Assembly (NCBI GenBank): GCA_017541885.1
Contig: JAFXYF010000011.1
Span: 1 to 64,000, forward strand
DNA: 64,000 bases
Origin: Bacilli bacterium
GTDB taxonomy: Bacteria; Bacillota_I; Bacilli_A; RF39; UBA660
Direction: 5' to 3'
Made by a program: the position numbers and the translations under genes. Positions 3,658 through 63,794 of this stretch are shown piece by piece (position 1 is the stretch's first letter; each line of letters starts with the position of its first letter). The notes beneath the pieces were generated by a model, which searched no databases, was not told the origin of the DNA, and saw only the letters and a program-made list of their open reading frames with translations.

Positions 3658-6285
3658 ATGAAAGAAAATCGATACTATGCAATGAAACAAGAGGAAATCT
3701 TTCAAAAGTTTCAAACAAGTTTAGAAGGATTAACAACAAAAGAAGCTGATAAAAGGGCATCAATTCATGGAAGAAATGAATTACCACATAAAAAGCCTGA
3801 TAGCCTATTAAAAATATTCATAACAGAATTATTAGATCCTATTGTTATGCTTTTAGTCGTAGCTATTTTTGCATCTCTAAGTGTAGGAGAATACGTTGAT
3901 GCTATAGCAATTACTGTAATTATTACAATCGATTTAATAATGGGTACAGTACAAGAGAAAAAAGCAAACAATACAGCAGAAGCACTATCTAAATTAGTTC
4001 GTGAAAAAGTAAAAGTACAAAGAGATGGAAAAGAAGTTTTAGTAGATTCCGAAGAATTAGTTGTAGGTGACTTAGTATACTTAGAGTCAGGTGACAAAAT
4101 ATCTGCAGACTTAAGAATTATCGAATCTCATAACTTTACAATAGATGAATCAATTCTAACTGGAGAAAGTCTACCAGTAGAAAAAAATCATAAAGTATTA
4201 CCAAATGAAAGAATGCCAGTAACATCACAAACAAATATGTTATTTGCAGGTACATCAGTTACAACAGGTAGAGCAAAAGCAATAGTTGTAGAAATTGGTA
4301 AAAATACAGAAATTGGTGTTATTGCAACAACAATTAATAATACAAAAGAAGAAAAATCACCATTAACTATTCGTGTAGAAAAATTCTCAAAAGATATCAC
4401 AGTAATGATAGTAATGGTTGGTATGGTAATTGCTATTATCTTAGCAACTAAAAGCCTACCAGCAGAAGAAATACTATTATCAGTAATAGCTTTATCAGTA
4501 TCTGCTATGCCAGAAGGATTACCACTAGCTTTAACAATGGCCTTAACAATTGCATCTAATAAGATGGCAAAACATAAAGTAGTTGCTAAAAAATTATATT
4601 CAGTTGAGTCTTTAGGAAGTTGTACAGTTATAGCAAGTGATAAGACTGGTACATTAACAGTTAATGAACAAACTGCCAAAGTAATATTATTACCAAATGA
4701 TAACGAATATGTAATTACAGGAACAGGATATAAAGTAAATGGTACTGTTGCTGGTGAAAAATTATCTTTAGCTAAAGAAATAGCAACATTAGGAGTATTA
4801 AATAATGAAGCAAAGTTTACTGCAGATGAAAAGATAGGAGATTCTGTTGATATTGCATTCCTAGTTTTAGGAGAAAAAATGCAAGTAGATACAAAGAATT
4901 GTAAAATAATTGAAACTATTCCATATGAATCAGCAAATAAATATTCAGCTGTATTCTATAAGAAAAATGGAGAATCATATTGTACTATTAAAGGTTCTCT
5001 AGAAGTAGTTATGTCTTTCTGTAAAGATGTTAATTTAATCAAATCATTTGATAAGAAACGTCTAGAAGAACAAAACGAAAGACTTGCTAAAGATGGATAT
5101 CGTGTTATTGCAGTAGCAAACGGAAAAATAAAAGATAAAGATGACTATGAAGAATCTGATATTAAAGGATTAACTTTCATGGGAATGGTAGGATTTATTG
5201 ATCCAATTCGTAAAGAAGTAATAGGTGCTATTAAGAAATGTTCTTCTGCTGGAATTAAAGTATTAATGATAACAGGAGATCATCCTCTAACAGCATTTAA
5301 AATATCTAAAGACTTAAAACTAACAGATAATTATGATGATGTAACAACAGGTGATGAAGTAGATAAAGAATTAAATAAAGGTCTAGAAAGATTTGATGAG
5401 TTTGTAAAAAGTAAAAAAGTATTTACAAGAGTTACACCTCTTCAAAAATTAAAAATAGTTGAATCTCTTAAACGTCAAGGAGAATTCGTTGCTGTTACAG
5501 GTGACGGAGTAAATGATGCTCCAGCATTAAGAAGTGCCAATATTGGTATTGCTATGGGTAGTGGAACTGATATTGCAAGAGAAACAGCAAAGATGATTGT
5601 TATGGATGATAACTTTAACTCTATTGTAAATGGTGTTTTAGAAGGTCGTGTTGCTTACTCCAATATTCGTAAGATTACTTATTACTTAGTATCTTGTGGA
5701 GTAGCTGAAGTATTATTCTTCTGTTTATCAGTACTATTAAATATGCCAATGCCGTTAGTAGCAATTCAATTATTATGGTTAAATGTTGTAACTGATGGTA
5801 TTCAAGACTTTGCTTTATCTTTTGAAAGACCAGAAAAAGATATAATGAAAGAAAAACCTAGAGATCCAAAAGAAAGTTTATTTGATAAAGAGTTACTTGC
5901 TGAAATCTTAATCTCAGGTATAACAATAGGTTTAATAGTATTTGCACTATGGGTATATCTATTAAAATACTTAAAGATGGGTACACCTCTAGCAAGAGTA
6001 TATGTAGTAGCCTTAATGATTATAATTCAAAATATTCATGCCTTTAACTGTCGTAGTGAAAGAAAGAGTGCATTTACAGTACCAATTAGTAGTAACTATA
6101 TATTCCTATTTGGAGTATTAGGATCTATTATATTAGGTCTAGCTGTATTAGAAATTCCAGGATTAAACATATTCTTAAAGACAACATCACTACCATATAA
6201 TCATATAGCAGGACTATTCTGTATAGGTTTAATTATATTTGTAGTAATGGAATTGTATAAAATAATTAGATATCACAAAAAATAA
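3658..6285 (+). CDS. P-type (P2-type) calcium-transporting ATPase
   Basis: The 875-aa protein has the full set of P-type ATPase motifs: TGES in the actuator domain (T168), the phosphorylation motif DKTGTLT (D328), MITGDHP and GDGVNDAP in the P domain (D616). An N-terminal cation-ATPase domain and ten predicted membrane helices frame them. PEGLP in helix M4 (E286), LWLN and VTDG in M6 are the Ca2+-site residues of the SERCA/PMCA group. In M5 the Glu of the SERCA site is kept, but the neighbouring Asn is Gly, so one rather than two Ca2+ per cycle is plausible. The family exports Ca2+ at the cost of ATP. ATG at 3658 has AGAGGTGG 7 nt upstream. Transketolase follows after 37 nt. Substrate is inferred from motifs; Mn2+ is an alternative. 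Confidence 0.9.
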   Translation: MKENRYYAMKQEEIFQKFQTSLEGLTTKEADKRASIHGRNELPHKKPDSLLKIFITELLDPIVMLLVVAIFASLSVGEYVDAIAITVIITIDLIMGTVQEKKANNTAEALSKLVREKVKVQRDGKEVLVDSEELVVGDLVYLESGDKISADLRIIESHNFTIDESILTGESLPVEKNHKVLPNERMPVTSQTNMLFAGTSVTTGRAKAIVVEIGKNTEIGVIATTINNTKEEKSPLTIRVEKFSKDITVMIVMVGMVIAIILATKSLPAEEILLSVIALSVSAMPEGLPLALTMALTIASNKMAKHKVVAKKLYSVESLGSCTVIASDKTGTLTVNEQTAKVILLPNDNEYVITGTGYKVNGTVAGEKLSLAKEIATLGVLNNEAKFTADEKIGDSVDIAFLVLGEKMQVDTKNCKIIETIPYESANKYSAVFYKKNGESYCTIKGSLEVVMSFCKDVNLIKSFDKKRLEEQNERLAKDGYRVIAVANGKIKDKDDYEESDIKGLTFMGMVGFIDPIRKEVIGAIKKCSSAGIKVLMITGDHPLTAFKISKDLKLTDNYDDVTTGDEVDKELNKGLERFDEFVKSKKVFTRVTPLQKLKIVESLKRQGEFVAVTGDGVNDAPALRSANIGIAMGSGTDIARETAKMIVMDDNFNSIVNGVLEGRVAYSNIRKITYYLVSCGVAEVLFFCLSVLLNMPMPLVAIQLLWLNVVTDGIQDFALSFERPEKDIMKEKPRDPKESLFDKELLAEILISGITIGLIVFALWVYLLKYLKMGTPLARVYVVALMIIIQNIHAFNCRSERKSAFTVPISSNYIFLFGVLGSIILGLAVLEIPGLNIFLKTTSLPYNHIAGLFCIGLIIFVVMELYKIIRYHKK

Positions 6286-44129: not shown

Positions 44130-44206
44130 GTATCCGTAGCTCAGTAGGATAGAGCAATCGCCTCCTAAGCGGTAGGTCATGAGTTCGATTCTCATCGGGT
44201 ACACCA
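44130..44206 (+). tRNA. tRNA-Arg (anticodon CCU)
   Basis: A full cloverleaf can be drawn: acceptor GTATCCG/CGGGTAC, D arm GCTC/GAGC, anticodon stem ATCGC/GCGGT around loop CTCCTAA (anticodon CCT at 44164-44166), T arm with TTCGATT loop, and an encoded CCA end. It reads the AGG arginine codon. Confidence 0.95.
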
Positions 44207-50446: not shown

Positions 50447-50491
50447 ATAAAGCCATACCGATGGGTGCATTCATAAGAAAGGGTGAATTTA

Positions 50492-53400
50492 ATGAAAGAT
50501 TCAGGGGGCAATAATAAGAAAAAAGCCTTAAGCTATAAGACTTTTGCATTAGTCTTAATAGCTGTTTTAAGTGTGGTCTTTTTTGCTTTTGGCGGATGGA
50601 ACAGAGTTCAATCTGCAATAGTTGATTTACAAAAAAGATTCGCAGATAATGAAGAAATCGACGGAAAGGAAAGAACAGATAACGGTGATGGTACATATAA
50701 ATTATCATTAAGTGTTACAGGTGATGCAGATACTGATACTAGAACACCACATGCTAATATCTTAATAGTATATGATCAATCTGGATCAATGCTAGCACAT
50801 TTAGCATCTAGCAAAGGATCATTTGGACACACAGGAACATTACAATCTTCTGGTTGGGAACAATTATATAAGACACGTGTTTCTCATGGAAGTGGTTATG
50901 GTAGATACTATACTTGTAGCAATCCAATAACAGATGCAGAAGAATATACTGGTACATTATATTATGACAGTAATGGAAATGGGCAAGGTGGATGTACAGA
51001 ATATAGTGGAAATAGATATTCAGCAATAACTCGTGCAGCAAGTGCAGAAAAAACTGTATATGATTTTGCTAATGCATTATTAAGTAAGAATCCAACAAGT
51101 GGACAAGATACTGATGCTGTAGAGATGGCTTTAGTAACATTTAATACAAATTCTCCTGTTTCAGGATCATCAGATCCTGCTCAAGGATGGACTAGTAGCA
51201 AGACTACTTTTACTAACTTATTTAGTAATACAGGAACATCTTATAAGAGATCATATTCTGGTTTAACAAACTGGCAACAAGCATTAACAAAAGCACGTAG
51301 TGTATTAGAAGATGCTGATGGTGATCAAACATTCGTAGTTTTCGTAACAGATGGTGCACCAACTGTATATCAAACTAATTATGGAACAAGCGATAAAGTA
51401 AATCCAGATGTAGCATATCCATATGCAAAAACTCCTGCTTACAATTTAAATCACTTTAAGACTCAAAATGGTCAAAACAATGGTTCAGTAGTTGCAACAG
51501 GTGGAAATACAACATTATATGGTGTATATGCATTTGGTGATGAAGCAGACTTCTTAGATGATTTAATCTATTATGCAAAAGATGGTACTGCTAGACCTGC
51601 TTCACAAGGTGGAGAAACTTCAGCAACTGTAGATACTACAAATTACTATAATGCTTCTGATAGTGCTGCTTTAACATCATCATTAGCAGACATCTTTAAC
51701 TCTATAGTAAATACTGTAGGTTTAGGAGAAGCATTTATTCAAGATGGAACTACTCAAAAAGTTGAAACAACATCAGGTGATATTTCAACATTACTAGAAG
51801 TAGATGAAAACTCATTTGAATATTGGATGGAGTTCCCAATTACTAATAATAAAATTACAAGAGTTGACCCACTATCAGGTACTGAATATGAAATAAGTTT
51901 AAGAAAAGATAATGCAACAGGAAAAATCATTGCATCATCTACTTATTGGGGAGAAAACTCTGATATAGAAGTTGATGGAGAACTAAGTGTTGGAACATTT
52001 AAATATAAATGGGAAACAGCTAATAAGTTATATAACTTTAATCCTCCAGCAGCAACATTCGATAAATATGATGAAGAAACAAATCCAGATGGTTCAGGAC
52101 AAGTTAAATGGCCATTAGGTAAAGTAGAAGAAAATGGAACAGTAATTCAAGAAGGTGTAGGAACATTATTAGATGGTGTAAAATACACTGTTACTTTTGA
52201 TGTATACCCATCACAAGAAACATATGATACTGTTGCAAGTATTAAGAATGCAGATAATGCTCAAACTGCATATAATAATTTAGATGCAAATATTAAGAAG
52301 TATTTAAAATATGAAAATGGAACATTTACTCTTGAAACAAATACAAATGCAACATTAACATATACAGATACTCATGATGGAAATACAACTCCAACTACTA
52401 AGAAATATAGAAATCCAGATCCAGTAGTTACAGTAGCATCTGAAATGGATGTTGAAAAAGTTTGGTTAAATCAATTAGATGCAAAAGCAGCACCTGACAA
52501 TTTAACATTAAACATGAACGTTGTAAGAGATAACGTTGAAGTATCTGGATTAAGCGTTGAAGTTAAAAAATCAAATAACTGGAAAGATTCAGTAGCAATT
52601 GCTACAGGATTAATGAGAACAAAAGTTGTAGATGGAAAAACAGTTGTTGAAGTATTAGATAAAGGACATGATTATACTTTAACAGAACCAGTTATTAATC
52701 AACCAGACTTCAAGTCATATCAATGGGAACTACAAATGGAAACAGTTCACCCAATGATAATCAATGGACAATTAACAACATTAATTGAAGTACCAACAAA
52801 TGAAATCCCATCTGGAATGGCTTCAACTGATGAGGTTTATAAATTTAATGGACATACTTTCTATAGATTTAATGGAAAAGTATATTATGACAAAGTAGTA
52901 CCAACTGCTGGACAAGCTCAAACAAATGCACAATTAAATGCATATAACATCCGTAAGAGTAACTTTAACTTTACAAAGAAAGTAGAAGGAGATCCAGTTG
53001 GTGGAGAAGCATTTACATTTACATTTAAAGTTGATAATACAACAAATGAAGATGTATGGTTCTCAGTATGTGATCCTGCAAAATTAGCTTCATTAGGAAA
53101 AACATGTGAAGATGCAGATGCAAACACATACTATGAAAGAGAAATAGGTGTTCAAGGTGCTACAGCAGAAGAAGGAGACACTGGATACTTCTTTGCACCA
53201 GATAATACAAATATTACTTTAAATATAAAAGATGGATGGAATGTTCGTGTAACAAATATTGGAACAGGTTCTACATATAACATTACTGAATCTGCACCAG
53301 AATCACCATTCACTTTAACAAATATTGATGGAACAGTAACAATTAGTGTTCCAGAATTACCTGCAAATGCAGTACAAACTTCAGAAGGAGTTTATACTGT

Positions 53401-56400
53401 AACAGCAGCAGATGGAACTGTAACAACATATAAAGCAGTAGGAGATCATTATGAATATGAATATACTCCTAATACAAATGTACAAAACAGAACTCTATCT
53501 GGACAAATTATTGCACCAAACAATACATATAGTGCAGTATTTACAAATACTTATCCAAAAACTCATTTAACAGTTAATAAAGTATGGAATGTAGCAGAAG
53601 ATGCTAAAAAACCTGTAGAAGTAACTTTATATAGATCAGTAAGTGGTGGAGAAAAGCAAAAAGTTACACAAACAGGATTAACTAATCCAGTTACATTAAA
53701 TGCAGCTAATAATTGGACATATACATTTAAAGATTTAGATTTATATGATACAAATAATAGAGTATATGATTACTTTACAGAAGAGTCAGAAATTACTGGT
53801 GGAACATATGTAACAACATATGAAGGAAAAGAAGATATCGTAGTAAGTGCTACAGATATTCCAGCAAATACTGAATCAATTGATGTAAATGTAACAATCG
53901 GTACAGAAACACAAGTTGTAACATTAAATAAAGAAAACAACTGGAGAGTAACAATTCCAGAAGTTAATTATGTAAATGAAGATGGAACAATTAAATATGT
54001 TTCAGTACGTTCAACAAGTAGTGCAGAAATTCACTATGCATTAACAAATAAAACAAATACAATTACAAATGAAGAAAGAGTAAATATTTCAGGTACTAAG
54101 ACTTGGACAGATACAAATAACCAAGATGGATTAAGACCTGAAACTATTACAATTCATTTAAATGCAGATGGAAATGGTATTGCAGAAACAACTGTAAGAC
54201 CAGCACAAGATGGATCTTGGACATATGCATTTAATAACTATCCAAAATATAAATATGATGAAGCAACAAAAACTTATGTAGCTATTGTTTATACAATTAC
54301 AGAAGATGTTGTTGCAAACTATACAACAGATATTCCAGAAGGATCATATGATGTAACAAATACTCATATTCCATTTGAGACAACTGTAACAGTTATTAAG
54401 AATTGGAATGATGATGATAACAGAGATGGATTAAGACCAGAATCAGTTAAATTCAAAGTTACAGATAATAAGGGATTAATGATTCCAGGATTTACTGATA
54501 ATACAGAATTATCATTAACTGAAGGTACTGATGGTAACTGGGTATATACTAAGACAGGATTACCAAGAAGAGCCGCTGGACAAGAAATCACTTATAGTGT
54601 TGTTGAAATTACAAGACCAACTGGATATGTACCTGCAGATGCAGATAACGAACCTGTTGTAACAGTTGAAAAGGGAGCAACAGAATTAGGTGCTCAAGTA
54701 TTCACAATTGAATATACAAATGTTCATACACCTTCTGTAGTACCAATCAGTGGTGAAAAACATTGGTCTGATAATGATGATCAAGATGGTTTAAGACCAA
54801 CATCATTAACAGTAGAATTAATTGGTACAGTTTATGCAGAAGATGGAAAAACAGTATTAGAAACAATTAATACTGGAAAAACAGCTACACTTCCAAATGC
54901 TGATGGAAGTTGGACATATGACTTTGGTAATATGCCAGAGTATCAAGATGGATATGTTGGTCGTCATATTACATACTCTGTAAGAGAGACTGCAGTTCCA
55001 AGTGGATATACAGAAACACAAGGACCAAATACATATGATATTACAAACTCTCATACACCAGAAACAATTACAAAATCTGGTACAAAGACTTGGGAAGATA
55101 ATAATAACCAAGATGGTAAGAGACCAACAAGTATTACAGTACAATTAACTGGTAAGATTACAGTTACAAATACTGATGGATCTACAACTGAACAAACAGT
55201 TGAAACAAGAACTATCGATGTAGTACCAAATGCACAAGGTGCTTGGTCATACTCATTTGCAGGATTACCAAGATATGCAAATCATGGACAAGAAATTGTT
55301 TATACTGTTACTGATACAGTTAACGGATATAGTGCAACAAATAATAGTATGAATTTAGTTAATACATTAATACCTGAAACTGTCGATGTTGAAGGTGAAA
55401 AGATCTGGGACGATGCTAATAACCAAGACGGAATAAGACCACAATCAATTACCGTACAATTAGTTGGACAAGTTCTAGATACAGATGGAGAAACAGTATT
55501 AGCTACAATTGATACTACAGGAAAGACTGCTACATTATCAGAAGAAGCAGGATGGACTTATAAGTTCGAAGGATTACAAAAGAATATTAACTTAGGTACT
55601 GTTGAAAATCCTGATGTTCGTGAAATTACTTATACTGTAACTGACTCAGTTGATGGATATACTACAACAAGTGAGGGTTACAATGTTAAGAATACACACG
55701 TACCAGAAACAGTAGTATTTGATGGATTAAAAGACTGGGTTGATAATGATGATCAAGATGGTAAGAGACCAGAAAGTATTACAGTTAGATTAACTGGTAC
55801 AATTACAAAAGATGGAAGAACAGTTGAAGCTTACAGTGATGTAATTACAGTAACAGCAGCAACTGCAACAGAAGATGATGATAATAAGTGGGCATATGAA
55901 TTCAATCCAGCTCCAAAATATAAAGATGGTATTGAAATTCAATATGTTATTACTGAAGATGCTGTACCAGAATATACAAGTACTGGTGTTGCAGCAGCAG
56001 ATGGAACAATTACAAATACACATACTCCAGGAAAAGTAGATGTTGCAGGTTCTAAGACTTGGGATGATGCAAATAACCAAGATGGTAAGAGACCAACATC
56101 AATTTCAATCACTTTAACTGGAACTGTTAAATATCAAAAAGATGGTCAAGAAGTAACAGAAGTTGTAAGACCAGCAGTAACTAAGACAGTAACTGCAAAT
56201 GATAATTGGTCATGGAGTTGGCCAGGATTAGATAAATATGACAATGGTCATGAAATTATCTATACAATTTCTGAAACACAAGTTACAGATTACAATGAAC
56301 CAGTAGTAGATGGATATAATGTTAAGAATACACATACTCCAGAAACTACTAAGGTTGAAGGTAAGAAGACTTGGACAGATACAAATGACCAAGATGGTTT

Positions 56401-59400
56401 AAGACCAGCATCAATTGATATTACATTAAGTGCTGTTGTTAAATATACAAAAGATGGTCAAGAAGTAACTGAAACTGCAAGACCTGATGAAACTAAGACA
56501 GTTACAGCAGCAGAAAACTGGTCATGGAGTTGGGATCCACTTCCAAAATACTATCAAGGACATGAAATTGAATATACAATTACTGAAGGTGCTGTAAATT
56601 ATTACGAATCTGCAGTAACAGGATATGATGTAGAAAATACACATACTCCATTTGAAACAACAGTAACAGTTGTTAAGAACTGGAACGATGGAAATAACCA
56701 AGATGGATTAAGACCAGATGCTATTACATTTAGAGTAGCAGATGACAAGGGATTAATGATCCCAGGATTTACAGATGATACTGAATTAAGACTTACTGCT
56801 GATGAAGGTAATGTATGGACTTATACTAAGACTGGATTACCTAGACGTGCAGCAGGACAAGAAATTACTTATAGTGTTATCGAAATTTCAAGACCTGATG
56901 GATATACACCTGCTTCAGATAATGAACCAGTTGTAACAGAAGAAGTAAATGCAGAAACTAATGCAAAAACATTTACTATCGCATATACAAATGAACATAC
57001 ACCTGCAGTTGTAGATGTAAATGGTTCTAAGGAATGGGATGATGATGGAGATAGAGATGGTATTAGACCAACATCTATTAAGATCACATTAACTGGAACA
57101 ACTGAATATGAAGATGAAAATGGAAATAAGGTAACTGAAACAGTTAAAGAAGCTGAAACTAAGACAGTAACAGCAGCTGATAATTGGTCATGGAGTTGGC
57201 CAAACTTACCTAAGTTCAATAAAGGTCATGAAATTACATATACAATTTCAGAAGAAAAAGTAGCTGGATATAATGATCCAGAAGTTGACGGATATAACGT
57301 TAAGAATACACATAAACCTTCTGAAACATCAGTAAAAGTTAAGAAAGTATGGGCTGATGATAACAATAGAGATTTAATTAGACCAACTCAAGTATTAATT
57401 ACACTTTACGCTAATGATGCTGAATATGGACAATATCCAGTAACAATTAACGATGCAATTAATGCAAATGAATGGGAGATTACAATCGATCATCTACCAT
57501 TAAATGATAAAGGAAAAGTAATAACTTATACTGCAAAAGAAAAAGTTGTTTCTGAATCAGAAACAGATGTACCAGCAGGATATACAGAATCTCACTCTGG
57601 TACAACAGTTACAAATACACATACACCAGAACCTACACAAATCTCTGGTAAGAAGGTATGGAAAGATGATAGTGATAGAGATGGTAAGAGACCAACATCT
57701 ATTACAATCAATGTATATGATGAAGATGATAAGACAACAATTGTTAAATCAGAAACTGTATCTGGAAATAATACAGATGAAGAATGGTCATATACAATTT
57801 CAGGATTAAATAAATATAAGAACGTAAATGGTGAACGTAAGACAATCAACTACGTAGTAGATGAAGTATTACCAGCAGGATATACAAAAGCTATTGATGG
57901 AACTACAATCACTAATACTTATAATACTGAAAAGAAAAATATCCCAGTATCTAAGACATGGGTAGATGAAAAAGGCGAGAATTATCGTCCAACATCAATC
58001 ACTGTTAACTTATTAGCAGATGGTGTAAAAGTTGATGAAACTGTATTAAGTGATGAAAATGAATGGAAACATACATTTGAAAACTTACCAGTAAATAAAA
58101 ATCATGGTACTGGAACAGTAACTTATACTGTTGAAGAAGTAGAAACACAACAAATTAAAGATTATTATGATGTAACATATCCAGAAACTGGAGAAGATGA
58201 AGGATTAGTAATTGTTAATACAATTAAAGACTTATCTAAAGAAATTCCAGTTGTAAAAGTATGGGATGATGAAAATAATCGTGATAAAGTTAGACCTACA
58301 TCTATTACATTTACATTAAAGGGAACTGTACCAAGTAAGACTGATCCAGTTTATACTGATTCAATTACAATTTCTACAGCTGACGTAGATGCAAATGATG
58401 CAAATAGATGGGTATCTAAATTTGAAAATGTACCAATCTTCCATGAAGGTACATGGATTACTTACACAGTTGAAGAATCAGGAGTAGATACTGAAATGTA
58501 TCCAAATACTACAAACGTAACTGCAGCAGATGGAACAATAACACTTACAAACTCTCACTCTCATTTATTAAAAGATATCGTTGCTTCTAAAGCATGGGAC
58601 GATAATGATGATAATGATGGTAAGAGACCAGGAAGCGTTAAGATTACATTATATGCAGACGGAGTAGAACAAGAAACATTAGAAGCTACTGAAGATACTC
58701 AATGGAAAGTAACATTCAAAGATTATCCAGTAAATAGAGAAGGAAAAGTGGGAGAACCAATTGAATATACTGTTGCTGAAACAGATGAAAATATTCCTGA
58801 AGGATATGAACCATCAGTAGATGGATATACAATTACAAACTCTCATGAACCTGCAACTATTACTTACAAAGTAACTAAGAACTGGGAAGACTTTGATAAT
58901 AATGATGGTAAGAGACCAGACTTTATTACTGTACGTTTAGTAGGTAAAGTAGGAGATACAGTAGTAAAAGAAGAAGTAATGGACGTATATGAAATCAATG
59001 CAGGATTCGAAAATGAACCTTGGACATATGCATTCACTAACTTACCAAAATACTACAATAAAGAGTTAGTACAATATACATTAACAGAAGATAAAGTTGA
59101 CTTATATGAAACAGAAAAGATTACATTTGTAGAAAATACTGAAGAAACTACAGAGATTACAAATGAAATTACAAACTCACATGATAAGATTCCATATAAT
59201 GAAAATGGTGAAATCACTGTTAACAAATATTGGTATGATGAAAATGATAAGTATAAGAAGAGACCAGGAAGTATTACAGTTAACTTACTTGCATTTGATG
59301 AAGTAGTAGCAACTGCTGAATTATCAGAAGCAAATGATTGGACATTTACTTTCGAAAATCTTCCAAAATATATGATCAAAGACGGAGAAGTAGGAGTAGA

Positions 59401-59620
59401 AATAGTATATTCTATCCAAGAGGTAGCTGTACCATTCTATCAAACTGAAATCGAAGGATTTGATATTACAAATACTTATAATGGACCAGTTCCTGAAATC
59501 ACTCCTCCAAATACAGGAGTAGCTATGACTAAGGAAAATGGAAACATCTTATTCGAAATGATTCTTACATTACTTGCTACAAGTTATACAGTAGTAGTTT
59601 TAAGAAAAGTAAATGAATAA
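50492..59620 (+). CDS. Giant vWA/Cna_B-repeat cell-wall adhesin with PPNTG sorting signal
   Basis: ATG 50492 is chosen over GTG 50483 because GAAAGGGTGA fits it. The 3,042-aa protein has a signal/TM segment (~15-35) and a von Willebrand A domain (~88-410) with MIDAS D95-x-S-x-S and VTDGAP. A linker and divergent Cna_B-like domains follow, then 17 clear Cna_B units of pattern K-x-W-x-D-x-x-x-x-D-G-x-R-P-x-S-I, each closing in Y-T-x-x-E and N-T-H-T-P. The Lys, Glu and Asn for internal isopeptide bonds are kept, so each unit should be covalently locked. The end is PPNTG (3005-3009), a hydrophobic helix and a basic tail: a sortase signal. This is a tip-type adhesin/pilus-like stalk. The sortase gene is next. 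Confidence 0.92.
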   Translation: MKDSGGNNKKKALSYKTFALVLIAVLSVVFFAFGGWNRVQSAIVDLQKRFADNEEIDGKERTDNGDGTYKLSLSVTGDADTDTRTPHANILIVYDQSGSMLAHLASSKGSFGHTGTLQSSGWEQLYKTRVSHGSGYGRYYTCSNPITDAEEYTGTLYYDSNGNGQGGCTEYSGNRYSAITRAASAEKTVYDFANALLSKNPTSGQDTDAVEMALVTFNTNSPVSGSSDPAQGWTSSKTTFTNLFSNTGTSYKRSYSGLTNWQQALTKARSVLEDADGDQTFVVFVTDGAPTVYQTNYGTSDKVNPDVAYPYAKTPAYNLNHFKTQNGQNNGSVVATGGNTTLYGVYAFGDEADFLDDLIYYAKDGTARPASQGGETSATVDTTNYYNASDSAALTSSLADIFNSIVNTVGLGEAFIQDGTTQKVETTSGDISTLLEVDENSFEYWMEFPITNNKITRVDPLSGTEYEISLRKDNATGKIIASSTYWGENSDIEVDGELSVGTFKYKWETANKLYNFNPPAATFDKYDEETNPDGSGQVKWPLGKVEENGTVIQEGVGTLLDGVKYTVTFDVYPSQETYDTVASIKNADNAQTAYNNLDANIKKYLKYENGTFTLETNTNATLTYTDTHDGNTTPTTKKYRNPDPVVTVASEMDVEKVWLNQLDAKAAPDNLTLNMNVVRDNVEVSGLSVEVKKSNNWKDSVAIATGLMRTKVVDGKTVVEVLDKGHDYTLTEPVINQPDFKSYQWELQMETVHPMIINGQLTTLIEVPTNEIPSGMASTDEVYKFNGHTFYRFNGKVYYDKVVPTAGQAQTNAQLNAYNIRKSNFNFTKKVEGDPVGGEAFTFTFKVDNTTNEDVWFSVCDPAKLASLGKTCEDADANTYYEREIGVQGATAEEGDTGYFFAPDNTNITLNIKDGWNVRVTNIGTGSTYNITESAPESPFTLTNIDGTVTISVPELPANAVQTSEGVYTVTAADGTVTTYKAVGDHYEYEYTPNTNVQNRTLSGQIIAPNNTYSAVFTNTYPKTHLTVNKVWNVAEDAKKPVEVTLYRSVSGGEKQKVTQTGLTNPVTLNAANNWTYTFKDLDLYDTNNRVYDYFTEESEITGGTYVTTYEGKEDIVVSATDIPANTESIDVNVTIGTETQVVTLNKENNWRVTIPEVNYVNEDGTIKYVSVRSTSSAEIHYALTNKTNTITNEERVNISGTKTWTDTNNQDGLRPETITIHLNADGNGIAETTVRPAQDGSWTYAFNNYPKYKYDEATKTYVAIVYTITEDVVANYTTDIPEGSYDVTNTHIPFETTVTVIKNWNDDDNRDGLRPESVKFKVTDNKGLMIPGFTDNTELSLTEGTDGNWVYTKTGLPRRAAGQEITYSVVEITRPTGYVPADADNEPVVTVEKGATELGAQVFTIEYTNVHTPSVVPISGEKHWSDNDDQDGLRPTSLTVELIGTVYAEDGKTVLETINTGKTATLPNADGSWTYDFGNMPEYQDGYVGRHITYSVRETAVPSGYTETQGPNTYDITNSHTPETITKSGTKTWEDNNNQDGKRPTSITVQLTGKITVTNTDGSTTEQTVETRTIDVVPNAQGAWSYSFAGLPRYANHGQEIVYTVTDTVNGYSATNNSMNLVNTLIPETVDVEGEKIWDDANNQDGIRPQSITVQLVGQVLDTDGETVLATIDTTGKTATLSEEAGWTYKFEGLQKNINLGTVENPDVREITYTVTDSVDGYTTTSEGYNVKNTHVPETVVFDGLKDWVDNDDQDGKRPESITVRLTGTITKDGRTVEAYSDVITVTAATATEDDDNKWAYEFNPAPKYKDGIEIQYVITEDAVPEYTSTGVAAADGTITNTHTPGKVDVAGSKTWDDANNQDGKRPTSISITLTGTVKYQKDGQEVTEVVRPAVTKTVTANDNWSWSWPGLDKYDNGHEIIYTISETQVTDYNEPVVDGYNVKNTHTPETTKVEGKKTWTDTNDQDGLRPASIDITLSAVVKYTKDGQEVTETARPDETKTVTAAENWSWSWDPLPKYYQGHEIEYTITEGAVNYYESAVTGYDVENTHTPFETTVTVVKNWNDGNNQDGLRPDAITFRVADDKGLMIPGFTDDTELRLTADEGNVWTYTKTGLPRRAAGQEITYSVIEISRPDGYTPASDNEPVVTEEVNAETNAKTFTIAYTNEHTPAVVDVNGSKEWDDDGDRDGIRPTSIKITLTGTTEYEDENGNKVTETVKEAETKTVTAADNWSWSWPNLPKFNKGHEITYTISEEKVAGYNDPEVDGYNVKNTHKPSETSVKVKKVWADDNNRDLIRPTQVLITLYANDAEYGQYPVTINDAINANEWEITIDHLPLNDKGKVITYTAKEKVVSESETDVPAGYTESHSGTTVTNTHTPEPTQISGKKVWKDDSDRDGKRPTSITINVYDEDDKTTIVKSETVSGNNTDEEWSYTISGLNKYKNVNGERKTINYVVDEVLPAGYTKAIDGTTITNTYNTEKKNIPVSKTWVDEKGENYRPTSITVNLLADGVKVDETVLSDENEWKHTFENLPVNKNHGTGTVTYTVEEVETQQIKDYYDVTYPETGEDEGLVIVNTIKDLSKEIPVVKVWDDENNRDKVRPTSITFTLKGTVPSKTDPVYTDSITISTADVDANDANRWVSKFENVPIFHEGTWITYTVEESGVDTEMYPNTTNVTAADGTITLTNSHSHLLKDIVASKAWDDNDDNDGKRPGSVKITLYADGVEQETLEATEDTQWKVTFKDYPVNREGKVGEPIEYTVAETDENIPEGYEPSVDGYTITNSHEPATITYKVTKNWEDFDNNDGKRPDFITVRLVGKVGDTVVKEEVMDVYEINAGFENEPWTYAFTNLPKYYNKELVQYTLTEDKVDLYETEKITFVENTEETTEITNEITNSHDKIPYNENGEITVNKYWYDENDKYKKRPGSITVNLLAFDEVVATAELSEANDWTFTFENLPKYMIKDGEVGVEIVYSIQEVAVPFYQTEIEGFDITNTYNGPVPEITPPNTGVAMTKENGNILFEMILTLLATSYTVVVLRKVNE
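54077..59490 (+). repeat. Tandem Cna_B-domain coding repeats (17 clear units)
   Basis: Units of roughly 85-125 codons. The unit at ~54364 and the unit at ~56650 share a special body (KGLMIPGFTD, GLPRRAAGQEITYSV) absent from the others, showing copying of a block within the gene. Confidence 0.8.
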
Positions 59621-59678: not shown

Positions 59679-59702
59679 TATGCAATTGAATTGAGGGATA
59701 CT

Positions 59703-60422
59703 ATGAAGGATAAAAAAATATTATTAGTAGTATTAATTACTGTATTCTTAGGTTTAGTAATTTATAACACAACAATACCTAATACTCCTAAACCAAAGGA
59801 ACCAGAAAAGATTATTATTCCAGTAAGTGAAGTAGTAGAGTATAACTATGAAGATTATTTTAATAATTTAAAAAATACTTATGGTAATAATGATATTGTC
59901 GCAGTAGTACAAATACCTAATGTATTAGAAGAAGTAGTTGTTCAAACAAGTGACAATGATTATTATTTAAAACATGATATACATCATAATTATGATGATA
60001 ATGGTACTAGTTTCTTAGACTATAGAAATAAAATTAGAGAATCTAAAAAACTATTAATATATGGTCATAGTGATCCATATGGAATATTACCATTTGTTAA
60101 ATTAACAAATTATAATGATAAGAAGTTTATGGAAGATAATCCATACATATATATTATTGATAAAGATGGAAAAAGAGAATATGAAGTATTCTCAAGTTAC
60201 ATTGAAACAAAAGACTTTGATTATGTTAATTTAGAAAGCTTTTCAGGACTTACTTATAAAGAACATTTAGATAAGTTGAGAAAGAAGTCATTTGTAAAAC
60301 ATGATATAGAGTTAAACGATGACTCTAAAGTATTAATTTTACAAACTTGTAGTTTTGATGAAAGAGTATCTGCAAAGACTAAATTTCAAATAGTAGTAGC
60401 TAAAGAAGTAGACAACAATTAG
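59703..60422 (+). CDS. Class B-type sortase
   Basis: ATG 59703 with GAGGG upstream is preferred over a TTG at 59691. The 239-aa protein has an N-terminal anchor helix (~5-23) and the sortase barrel: YLKHDIHHNYDDNGTSFLDYRN (class B-type second half), IYGHSD with His122 and LQTCSF with Cys216. The usual Arg a few residues before the last strand is uncertain: the aligned position looks like Lys227 (TKFQIVVA), with Arg221 nearby. Sortases cleave a sorting motif after Thr and join the protein to peptidoglycan. The giant PPNTG adhesin just upstream is the evident substrate. Confidence 0.87.
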   Translation: MKDKKILLVVLITVFLGLVIYNTTIPNTPKPKEPEKIIIPVSEVVEYNYEDYFNNLKNTYGNNDIVAVVQIPNVLEEVVVQTSDNDYYLKHDIHHNYDDNGTSFLDYRNKIRESKKLLIYGHSDPYGILPFVKLTNYNDKKFMEDNPYIYIIDKDGKREYEVFSSYIETKDFDYVNLESFSGLTYKEHLDKLRKKSFVKHDIELNDDSKVLILQTCSFDERVSAKTKFQIVVAKEVDNN

Positions 60423-61925: not shown

Positions 61926-62126
61926 ATGACAGTAGAAGAATTAAGAAAGAAAATGATTGAAGATTTAGAGCCAGCTTTCTTTATTGGAGGTTTTGGTGGA
62001 GCAATGCTAGAATTTGAAGAAATAAAAAAAGCTAGTAAAGAAAAGGTAATAGAAATTGCTAAGAAAAAGGGTTATATTAAGTCAGAAGAAGAAGTAGAAG
62101 ATAATCCTAAAGTAAAGAGATTTTGA
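61926..62126 (+). CDS. Small acidic/basic hypothetical protein
   Basis: The 66-aa protein has no signal or membrane helix. It has a GGFGGAMLEFEEI stretch in the middle and a Lys-rich helical C-terminus. AGGAG precedes ATG 61926, 7 nt after the zinc-ribbon gene, so the two are co-transcribed. It resembles small unknown Firmicutes proteins of the MTVEELRKKM... kind. It ends in TGA, and its stop overlaps the -35 box of the next promoter. Confidence 0.75.
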   Translation: MTVEELRKKMIEDLEPAFFIGGFGGAMLEFEEIKKASKEKVIEIAKKKGYIKSEEEVEDNPKVKRF

Positions 62127-62151
62127 CAAATATCAAAACTTATGTTAAAAT
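62123..62151 (+). promoter_or_regulatory. Promoter of the His-leader operon
   Basis: TTGACA, 17 nt, TAAAAT; transcription should start about 25 nt before the leader ATG. Confidence 0.65.
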
Positions 62152-62181
62152 AATCGCAATTAAATGAAAGGGAGGATTATT

Positions 62182-62244
62182 ATGAAATATTCATATAATC
62201 AAATTCATCATCATAATAGTCTGCACTTGTTAATACGACATTAA
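62182..62244 (+). CDS. His-rich leader peptide (20 aa)
   Basis: A strong GGGAGG site lies 6 nt before the ATG. The peptide is MKYSYNQI-HHH-NSLHLLIRH: five His in 20 residues, including three in a row at 62206-62214. It is followed by two overlapping hairpin options and a terminator, then a gene start at 62388. This is the layout of an amino-acid attenuation leader responding to charged tRNA-His. It is too short for ordinary gene finding. Confidence 0.75.
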   Translation: MKYSYNQIHHHNSLHLLIRH

Positions 62245-62345
62245 AAGCTCGTAGGTACAAGTGCTATTTGTAGTGCTTGTATCGCTTATAAATATAGATG
62301 ACTATTATAATGCTATACAGGTACTATCTGTATAGCATTTTTTTA
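62223..62345 (+). promoter_or_regulatory. Attenuator: competing hairpins and terminator
   Basis: Segment 1 (GCACTTGT, 62223-62230, within the leader frame) can pair with segment 2 (ACAAGTGC, 62257-62264). Segment 2 alternatively pairs with segment 3 (TACAAGTGCTA 62256-62266 with TAGTGCTTGTA 62271-62281, TTTG loop, 11 pairs incl. two G-U). The terminator is ATGCTATACAG (62310-62320)/CTGTATAGCAT (62328-62338) with seven Ts. Segment 3 (62276-62287) can pair imperfectly with the terminator's left arm and so act as antiterminator. Confidence 0.65.
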
Positions 62346-62387
62346 TTAGAAAAATGAAAAAAATATGATTATGAAGGAGAAAAGAAT

Positions 62388-63273
62388 TTGAAAACAATAA
62401 AAAATGGTATCGTCTTTAGTAACGATATAAAAAGAATACTAGAAGGAGTTAATTCATTAGACTTTAGGTATGATTATATACCAAATGAAGATACAATAAG
62501 AAAGGTAAGATATGACTTTAAAAAACAAGTAAATAAAATCTTTGATAAAGTATCTATTATTTCAGAAGATGAAATGTTAGAAGTAAATAATTTGATTGAA
62601 GGTGGATATCCCCATCGTAACTTTGGATAAGATTTATATTAAACCAGATGAAGAAAATATATTCTTCTTAGACTGTACTAGAATAAATGGTAGTGATGAA
62701 CTAACAACTAGAACTAAAGGTAGTTTAGAAGAACAAGTAAAAGATTTAAGAAATAGAATTAAATCTAGACAAGTAATACTTGCAGATGATGTAGTATTCT
62801 CTGGAAGTGTTTTAAAGAAAATAATTAGTTTATTAAAAGGACAAGGAATAGAAGTAGTACAAGTAGTATCTTGTATTTGTACAAAAGAAGGATATGACTA
62901 TTTTAATAAGAATTTAAAATATGGATTAAAAACAAATATCTTATTAGAAGAAGATGTCATAGATCAAATTTGTGAAAGAGATTTCTATTTTGGAATTGCT
63001 GGTTCAGGTATAGTTGTAAAAACTAAAGAAGGATTTATGAAAGCACCATACTTTGAACCATTTGGTAATCCAAATGAAAGAGCATCTATTCCAGAAAAAG
63101 ATTCTAAATCATTCTCAGAAGGATGTATTAAAAGAAGTATAATGCTTTGGGAAGAGATAGATAAATTAAAAGGAGAAAAAACAAAAATGTCTGAACTACC
63201 AGAAAAAATAGTTGGTACTAAAGAAAATGATGAAGTAGTAAAAGTATTAAAATTGAAAGGAAGAAGTTTATGA
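62388..63273 (+). CDS. Phosphoribosyltransferase-like gene with +1 frameshift
   Basis: TTG start at 62388 with AAGGAG 8 nt upstream. The first frame runs 80 codons to a TAA at 62628; the rest of the protein continues one base later and runs to 63273. Joining at CCCC (62610-62613) gives GGYP followed by IVTLDKIYIK, a smooth sequence of about 295 residues. The second part has VILADDVVFSGS, like the PRPP loop of type I phosphoribosyltransferases, and IFFLDCTRIN as a core strand. The ATG at 62596 has no site and is not a true start. The break may be programmed, a sequencing/assembly slip in a homopolymer, or a real mutation. The last bases overlap the next gene (ATGA). Confidence 0.65.
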
Positions 63274-63794
63274 AAAAAATACAAATAGGAGTTATGGGTT
63301 CGGCTGCTGATTTAAATTATAGTGATGAGGCTTTAGCCTTTACTAAAGAGTTAGGAGAATTAATTGCAGATTCTGGCAATATCTTAGTCTATGGAGCAGA
63401 AAAAGAGTATACCTCTTTATCTACTGAAGCTGCAAAGGCAGCAAGTAAAAAAGGTGGTATAACAGTAGGAGTTGCGGGAGGAAAAAGTAAAAAAGTATTT
63501 GGTAAATTCCGTCCAACAATCCTTATTAATTCAGGGCAAGAAATAGGAGGAGGACGTGAATTTAACCTAGTCTTATCTTGTGATGTAATAATTGCTTTAG
63601 GAGGAGGATCAGGAACTCTTACTGAGATTGCTATAGCTTATCAAGCAGGCATCCCAATTATCACTGTAAATAAGTTCGGTGGATGGTCAAAAGAGTTGGC
63701 TAACCTATATTTAGATGAAAGGTGTAGGTTAAAGTGTATTCCAGCCAGTACTGCCAAAGAAGCACTCGATTTAGCAATAAAACAAGTTAAATAA
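63270..63794 (+). CDS. LOG/TIGR00725-like nucleotide-binding protein
   Basis: The 174-aa protein has a Rossmann-like start (IGVMGSAAD), LIADSGNILVYGAEKEY, EIGGGREFNLVLSCDVIIALGGGSGTLTEI and AYQAGIPI. This matches the TIGR00725 / LOG (lysine-decarboxylase-like) group, where GGG-x-G-T-x-x-E is the signature. Related LOG enzymes release base or ribose-5-phosphate from nucleoside monophosphates. The ATG overlaps the preceding phosphoribosyltransferase-like gene (ATGA), so both are one translationally coupled unit, pointing to nucleotide or PRPP chemistry. The exact substrate is unknown. Confidence 0.88.
   Translation: MKKIQIGVMGSAADLNYSDEALAFTKELGELIADSGNILVYGAEKEYTSLSTEAAKAASKKGGITVGVAGGKSKKVFGKFRPTILINSGQEIGGGREFNLVLSCDVIIALGGGSGTLTEIAIAYQAGIPIITVNKFGGWSKELANLYLDERCRLKCIPASTAKEALDLAIKQVK

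Follow-up and report, generated by a model that had tools for sequence, protein, structure and literature searches.

A conserved histidine-codon leader attenuator upstream of a phosphoribosyltransferase gene carrying a +1 frameshift site: a proposed two-layer response to histidine starvation

The window analysed here is a stretch of 64,000 nucleotides (contig JAFXYF010000011.1, positions 1 to 64,000) from a Bacilli bacterium of the lineage RF39, UBA660. Near its end, on the forward strand, a sigma-70-type promoter (62123-62151; TTGACA at 62123-62128, 17 nt, TAAAAT at 62146-62151) precedes GGGAGG (62170-62175), the ribosome-binding site of a 20-codon leader ORF encoding MKYSYNQIHHHNSLHLLIRH and a stop (62182-62244). 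Three consecutive His codons (CAT CAT CAT, 62206-62214) make up the putative stall site; at the local codon usage (His 1.35%), the probability of at least 5 His in 20 codons is about 6e-6. Three further segments follow these codons: segment 1 (GCACTTGT / GCACUUGU, 62223-62230), segment 2 (ACAAGTGCTA / ACAAGUGCUA, 62257-62266), which can pair with segment 1 or 3, and segment 3 (TAGTGCTTGT, 62271-62280). Segment 3 with its tail (UAGUGCUUGU plus tail, 62271-62287) can pair with segment 2 or, according to our computation, with the 5' arm of the terminator, the latter pairing (3:4) being the antiterminator. The intrinsic terminator (62309-62346) is made of a hairpin (62309-62339), whose 5' arm is segment 4, and a T-run. 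The promoter, ribosome-binding site, ORF, segments and terminator were read directly from the sequence. Most close relatives keep TTGACA, and relatives retain an SD-like site and the ORF. The leader RNA folds 5.4 SD better than dinucleotide shuffles. All the elements named by an earlier sequence-only reading (promoter, GGGAGG, the ORF with HHH, mutually exclusive segments and terminator) are present.

Behind the leader lie a gene for a phosphoribosyltransferase (PRTase, PF00156) and a SLOG/LOG-like gene (PF18306, TIGR00725-like; 63270-63794, forward strand) without any His residue, in agreement with the phosphoribosyltransferase and LOG-like genes that had been proposed. The start of SLOG overlaps the PRTase stop (ATGA) at this locus, and the overlap was found in most loci. 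A search of PDB sequences with the PRTase returned a chance match only. Further upstream, the window contains a 3,045-aa repetitive surface-protein-like ORF with a PPNTG sorting-like end (50483-59620), followed by a sortase gene (59691-60422), and a tRNA-Arg(CCU) gene (44130-44203), the only tRNA found in the window.

The leader matched no Rfam family at its cut-off, and the Rfam His_leader (RF00514) was absent among matches at the gathering score or with E up to 10. A hit to the trpB motif (RF04312; 30.5 bits against a cut-off of 59) was discarded, as two generic hairpins alone were matched. Firmicutes had been said usually to use T-box leaders for this type of control. The T-box model (RF00230) had no match in the window; the host lineage does use T-boxes, 12 of which were found elsewhere in this genome.

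Recurrence in relatives, which is the decisive control, confirmed that the leader is real. A core covariance model was searched in 386 genomes sampled from the host family (a sample, not the whole family), consisting of draft assemblies, some of them certainly metagenome-derived, and found the leader in 42 genomes from 28 genera. A looser model reached 54 genomes, its weakest matches (L153, L155, L158, L159 and L161) being judged chance. Among 395 genomes sampled from the class, strong matches occurred in the host family only; one match of 31.9 bits in a genome outside the family (G077) was also attributed to chance. A phage or plasmid origin was considered and rejected: the leader core had no match in viral contigs, PHROGs gave no match, and the PRTase had one weak plasmid match. 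A relative from the same genus (G019, JAFWKJ010000012.1, a Bacilli MAG from sheep ileum) carries a near-identical leader before the same two genes. In five further members of the genus the leader precedes an M20 peptidase gene, with a GNAT gene in between in one of them.

Relatives with the terminator but without the frame, or with no His codons in it, would have contradicted the sequence-only reading; the comparison did not contradict it. Nearly all His-type relatives retain the ORF and two or more His codons in register, with synonymous exchanges between CAT and CAC. Across the 60 aligned leaders of all types, His occupies codon positions 2/3/4 in most, with position 3 in 49 and position 4 in 52. 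The peptides themselves vary at the N-terminus and partly at the C-terminus; in MLKTLKNHHHNNRTC, MLKQINRQHHHNNLHL and MTNLNRQHHHSNRTC the usual ending or its frame is lost and HHH is retained. The near-invariant stretch CTGCACTTGTTAATACGACATTAA looks like the result of an RNA-level constraint, because it includes segment 1 and its third codon positions are kept.

Helix statistics were computed on the 60 leaders and compared with 500 shuffles and with slid versions of the helices, the latter controls being important because related sequences inflate pairing and covariation counts. Pairing held in 97.5% of cells for helix 1:2, four of whose pairs show double changes, and in 94.8% for helix 2:3; the slid controls paired at 16-55%. 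Covariation of both helices was above all 500 shuffles, and that of 2:3 also surpassed all slid controls. In the case of helix 1:2, a single slid version came near on covariation (0.135 vs 0.140), yet it pairs in only 47% of cells. One position changed jointly in all three segments, from G:C:G to A:U:A, in 8 sequences, as expected if segment 2 has to pair with both 1 and 3. A terminator lies behind 66 of the 67 leaders tested. When the transcript was folded up to the 3' arm of the terminator, at a stage where this arm has yet to emerge, with a ribosome placed at the stall site or at the stop, the 3:4 pairing was stronger in the stalled state for 47 of 66 leaders and weaker for 8 in this crude folding model. 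Pairing and covariation thus support the mutually exclusive 1:2 and 2:3 helices that had been proposed from one sequence.

The genes found behind the His leader include hisS (TIGR00442, 348 bits, cut-off 287) and, at two loci, hisG (TIGR00070, above the curated cut-off). Histidine-racemase-like genes, whose best matches are the HisR and CntK models, below cut-off, M20 ArgE/DapE-like genes and the PRTase-SLOG pair were also found in this position. At four loci (L064, L068, L069 and L076) a His leader stands before a gene for a His-poor protein of about 470 aa that matches no Pfam or NCBIfam model and, by eye, resembles S51 peptidases; at L076 an S66 peptidase gene follows. At another (L025), a gene for a cation-efflux-like protein ending in six His ends about 840 bases upstream of the His leader of an M20 gene.

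In other leader types, the His codons are replaced in register by TGT TGT, by Arg codons or by TGG. Genome G751 contains a CysCys leader (L087/L109, G751:C10; MLLYRNTCCMKSMHLSL and a stop) with TGT TGT in the HisHis register, which precedes cysS (TIGR00435, 487 bits), a second copy of this gene. No such leader was found before the other cysS of G751 or the cysS of related genomes where the upstream region was readable, some starts being placed uncertainly. In the same genome, a Trp leader (ending in NNLWRHIGNTYTSRY and a stop, L144) precedes trpS (TIGR00233, 331 bits, cut-off 177). This leader is of the Trp-Arg-His or Trp-His-His (WRH) type; others of that type stand before M20 genes (L142, L143, L145, L147, L148, L150 and L151). 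ArgArgArg leaders precede an M20 gene different from that behind His leaders; loci with this leader and an Arg-poor M20 protein are L146, L149, L152, L154, L156 and L157. In a tree, M20 proteins encoded behind His leaders branch separately from those behind WRH leaders. The leader of L088 reads RRRR, before a gene of 301 residues with one Arg.

The His codons kept in register, the hisS and hisG partners and the codon swaps before cysS and trpS strongly support the earlier model of a ribosome-mediated transcription attenuator with a His leader. At low His-tRNA, the leader ribosome would stall at HHH and leave segment 1 free to pair with 2, so that segment 3 would pair with the 5' arm of the terminator and RNA polymerase would read through. 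With enough histidine, the ribosome at the stop would cover segment 1, helix 2:3 would form and the terminator would work. We infer that the leader is read through on histidine limitation, and we hold this first layer, taken alone, to be highly probable. One RNA scaffold with His, Cys, Arg or Trp codons in register also means that the codons predict the amino acid served. On this basis, the uncharacterised M20 and S51-like genes and the PRTase-SLOG pair can be assigned to histidine or arginine stress. The description of the window's genes as a non-histidine operon was right in that no gene at this locus is a known His enzyme; it does not fit the PRTase, which sits behind a His leader in all 14 genomes where it was seen and is therefore a member of the histidine regulon.

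Proteins made during starvation should avoid the scarce amino acid, so that their composition supports the assigned signals independently of the leader. Expected counts were derived from the proteins of this window, and P values are indicative only, because the expectation is window-based and HisS is also Thr-poor. HisS proteins behind the leader contain 3 His in 6,493 residues vs 88.7 expected (E. coli HisS has 8 in 424, counted on its translation), though Thr is depleted as strongly as His and the composition also reflects the family. The PRTases have 4 His in 4,233 residues (57 expected), the SLOG proteins 3 in 2,093 (28 expected) and HisG 0 in 424; the M20 proteins behind the His leader are mildly His-poor (18 vs 28.5 expected). 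Behind Arg leaders, Arg is the most depleted residue of M20 (18 vs 52 expected), and behind WRH leaders, which hold one Trp codon, M20 has 6 Trp vs 12 expected and 32 Arg vs 61 expected. CysS behind the Cys leader has 2 Cys vs 4 to 8 in 11 other copies, and TrpS behind the Trp leader has no Trp vs 2 expected, which is not significant. Purging of the sensed amino acid is a sequence-only, independent test of an attenuator's signal that could be used elsewhere.

The PRTase gene is open in two frames joined at GGA TAT CCC CAT, a feature absent from the sequence-only reading. The zero frame starts at TTG (62388-62630, forward strand) and gives 80 aa without a shift, ending in GYPHRNFG; the +1-frame remainder (62611-63273, forward strand) carries the PF00156 domain, and the fused protein has 294 aa and no His. 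The site itself is TAT CCC CAT (62607-62615, forward strand), with CCC-C as the slip sequence and the His codon CAT in the A site, downstream of an SD-like AAGGTGG (62599-62605, forward strand). Of 14 orthologues, 12 are broken in this way (that of the window, L020 at 4007-4035 and 10 more), with TAY or TTT before CCC CAT and a codon for Cys, Arg or Tyr behind it; 3 of these 12 sites came to light once the pattern was already on record. The two unbroken orthologues (L074 and L077) have CCA ATT at the site and keep the leader. All 14 PRTases found sit behind a His leader, hence there is no unlinked control.

Fused PRTases align over their full length with invariant residues on either side of the join, and the +1 part has a dN/dS of about 0.11-0.19 in three pairs of relatives. 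CCC accounts for 4 of 18,682 codons in the window, and the sole tRNA-Pro found in the genome has the anticodon UGG, two partial tRNAs at contig ends being untyped. Anti-SD pairing before the slip codon was above phase-matched windows within each gene (combined P 9e-14 over 12 genes, with kinship ignored) and is weak or absent as a stretch in the two unbroken orthologues. Four sites (L073, L078, L043 and L164) have AGGAGG or GGGAGG exactly three bases before CCC, the prfB spacing; in the remaining ones the SD-like element is weaker or further away. The PRTase gene shares with programmed +1 frameshifts of the prfB type a conserved slip site, purifying selection on the +1 frame and an SD-like stimulator, the last at variable spacing. 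Reinitiation was considered instead and rejected, since in L060 and L061 no ATG, GTG or TTG start was seen by eye in the +1 frame from its last stop to the conserved PIV.

The A-site codon is CAU, not UGA, so the site, although it would act in the manner of prfB, does not belong to the RF2 type. CAU is the only zero-frame His codon in 11 of the 12 broken genes, and 10 of the 12 trans-frame PRTases lack His altogether. A ribosome that decodes CAU runs into a stop codon, in most cases four codons further on. With histidine, CAU would be read after CCC and translation would end at that stop; with His-tRNA scarce, the empty A site would allow peptidyl-tRNA-Pro to move from CCC onto the CCC that overlaps it, giving the complete PRTase. 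Because the start of SLOG overlaps the stop of the PRTase gene in most loci, SLOG probably depends on the shift as well, through translational coupling to the complete PRTase. Completing the product of a slip would take little or no histidine.

Leader and frameshift together would form a two-layer histidine-starvation switch, turning on genes that this gut bacterium needs when histidine is exhausted, a reading that we consider probable. A histidine response of the second layer is somewhat less assured, though still likely, and we infer both that the frameshift takes place in cells and that it rises on His limitation. There is a good chance that this is the first natural hungry-codon programmed frameshift, in which the complete product of a gene required under histidine starvation would appear only once His-tRNA runs too low to decode the one His codon remaining in the reading path. 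Attenuator and frameshift would then be stacked, transcription and translation sensing the same signal independently, which we judge to be similarly likely.

The main alternative to a histidine-sensing second layer keeps the attenuator as proposed and takes the frameshift as constitutive or as sensing another signal, such as tRNA-Pro charging or m1G37, with the His codon a by-product of Pro-Ile. CCC-N is the classic +1 slip site for tRNA-Pro lacking m1G37, and the identity of CAU is weak evidence alone, being forced once a CCC-C slip site precedes Ile (CCC then ATY; Pro-Ile in the +1 frame); by our own estimate, a chance match of the site's His codon has a probability of perhaps about 1 in 10. 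CCC_UGA shifts also occur in Listeria phages and, incidentally, in E. coli pheL (PMC5009743). Yet the gene, otherwise purged of His codons, retains the zero-frame CAU in 12 of 14 orthologues; the transcript would already be under His control, and the unshifted orthologues show that the site can be lost. We therefore regard this alternative as unlikely. The split in the PRTase gene could also be put down to decay into a pseudogene or to faulty assembly, given the one-base shift it needs and the draft, mostly metagenome-type assemblies. An assembly error is very unlikely because the site is conserved at the same position and with the same sequence in 12 species of several genera, and the dN/dS of 0.11-0.19 behind the shift argues against decay; we give this explanation hardly any weight.

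Two other explanations concern what the leader senses. If the leader worked by peptide arrest or ligand sensing, in the manner of ermC or tnaC, the LHLLIRH peptide or the RNA would be the sensor rather than charged tRNA, which would agree with the near-invariant sequence of the 3' half of the ORF and of parts of the loop. What is invariant, however, is the nucleotide sequence, pairing segment 1 included; some peptides end in HHHNNRTC or HHHNNLHL, and codon swaps track the cognate synthetase, making this explanation improbable. Sensing of queuosine in the tRNAs for His, Tyr and Asn, and not of histidine charging, was suggested by the 9 of 20 codons in the window's leader that are NAU or NAC for these amino acids. 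It was rejected as extremely improbable: the Tyr codons are not conserved whereas the His codons are, Q-tRNAs do not decode the codons found in the Cys, Arg and Trp versions, and hisS and hisG are among the genes behind the leader. Charging of His-tRNA thus remains the preferred signal of the attenuator.

His-leader attenuators were predicted in 2022 before the his operons of some Firmicutes, namely the B. cereus group, Peptostreptococcaceae and Erysipelotrichales (PMC9413887). These and the enterobacterial his leader (RF00514) share with the present leader consecutive His codons in a short ORF, alternative hairpins, a terminator and sensing of His-tRNA by codons. Unlike them, the leader described here occurs in another lineage with another RNA sequence that has no Rfam match at cut-off; it would control hisS, hisG, peptidases, racemase-like genes and the PRTase-SLOG operon, and its scaffold is reused with Cys, Arg and Trp codons. 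Attenuators predicted in 2005 before trpS and leuS of Streptomyces (PMC1262725) are similar in that a leader peptide precedes an aminoacyl-tRNA synthetase gene, in one case trpS2. They belong to a different phylum, and one scaffold for several amino acids is not described for them.

The frameshift site resembles that of prfB (RF2), with which it shares an SD-like stretch, a UAU codon, a P-site slip codon and a slow A-site codon, as well as, in the proposed model, a short zero-frame product, a functional trans-frame product and a sensor that is also the effector. In contrast, prfB slips on CUU-U at UGA and senses RF2, whereas the PRTase gene would slip on CCC-C at the sense codon CAU and would sense His-tRNA; the spacing of the SD-like element is prfB-like in only some PRTase sites. 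The CCC_UGA shift of Listeria phage tsh and E. coli pheL likewise involves a +1 slip of tRNA-Pro on CCC, but with a stop codon in the A site, and the pheL shift is considered incidental (PMC5009743). In hungry-codon frameshifting of E. coli (Gallant and others; PMC5009743), as proposed here, a starved A-site codon provokes slippage of the peptidyl-tRNA; there it was studied as an effect of starvation. A review of 2016 knew of no hungry-codon frameshift giving a starvation-specific trans-frame product with its own function (PMC5009743), and a search of titles and abstracts brought up no paper resembling a natural example, which is not proof of absence. If confirmed, a frameshift at a single His codon would be without natural precedent, and the PRTase site offers a conserved natural candidate for a phenomenon that has been studied for decades.
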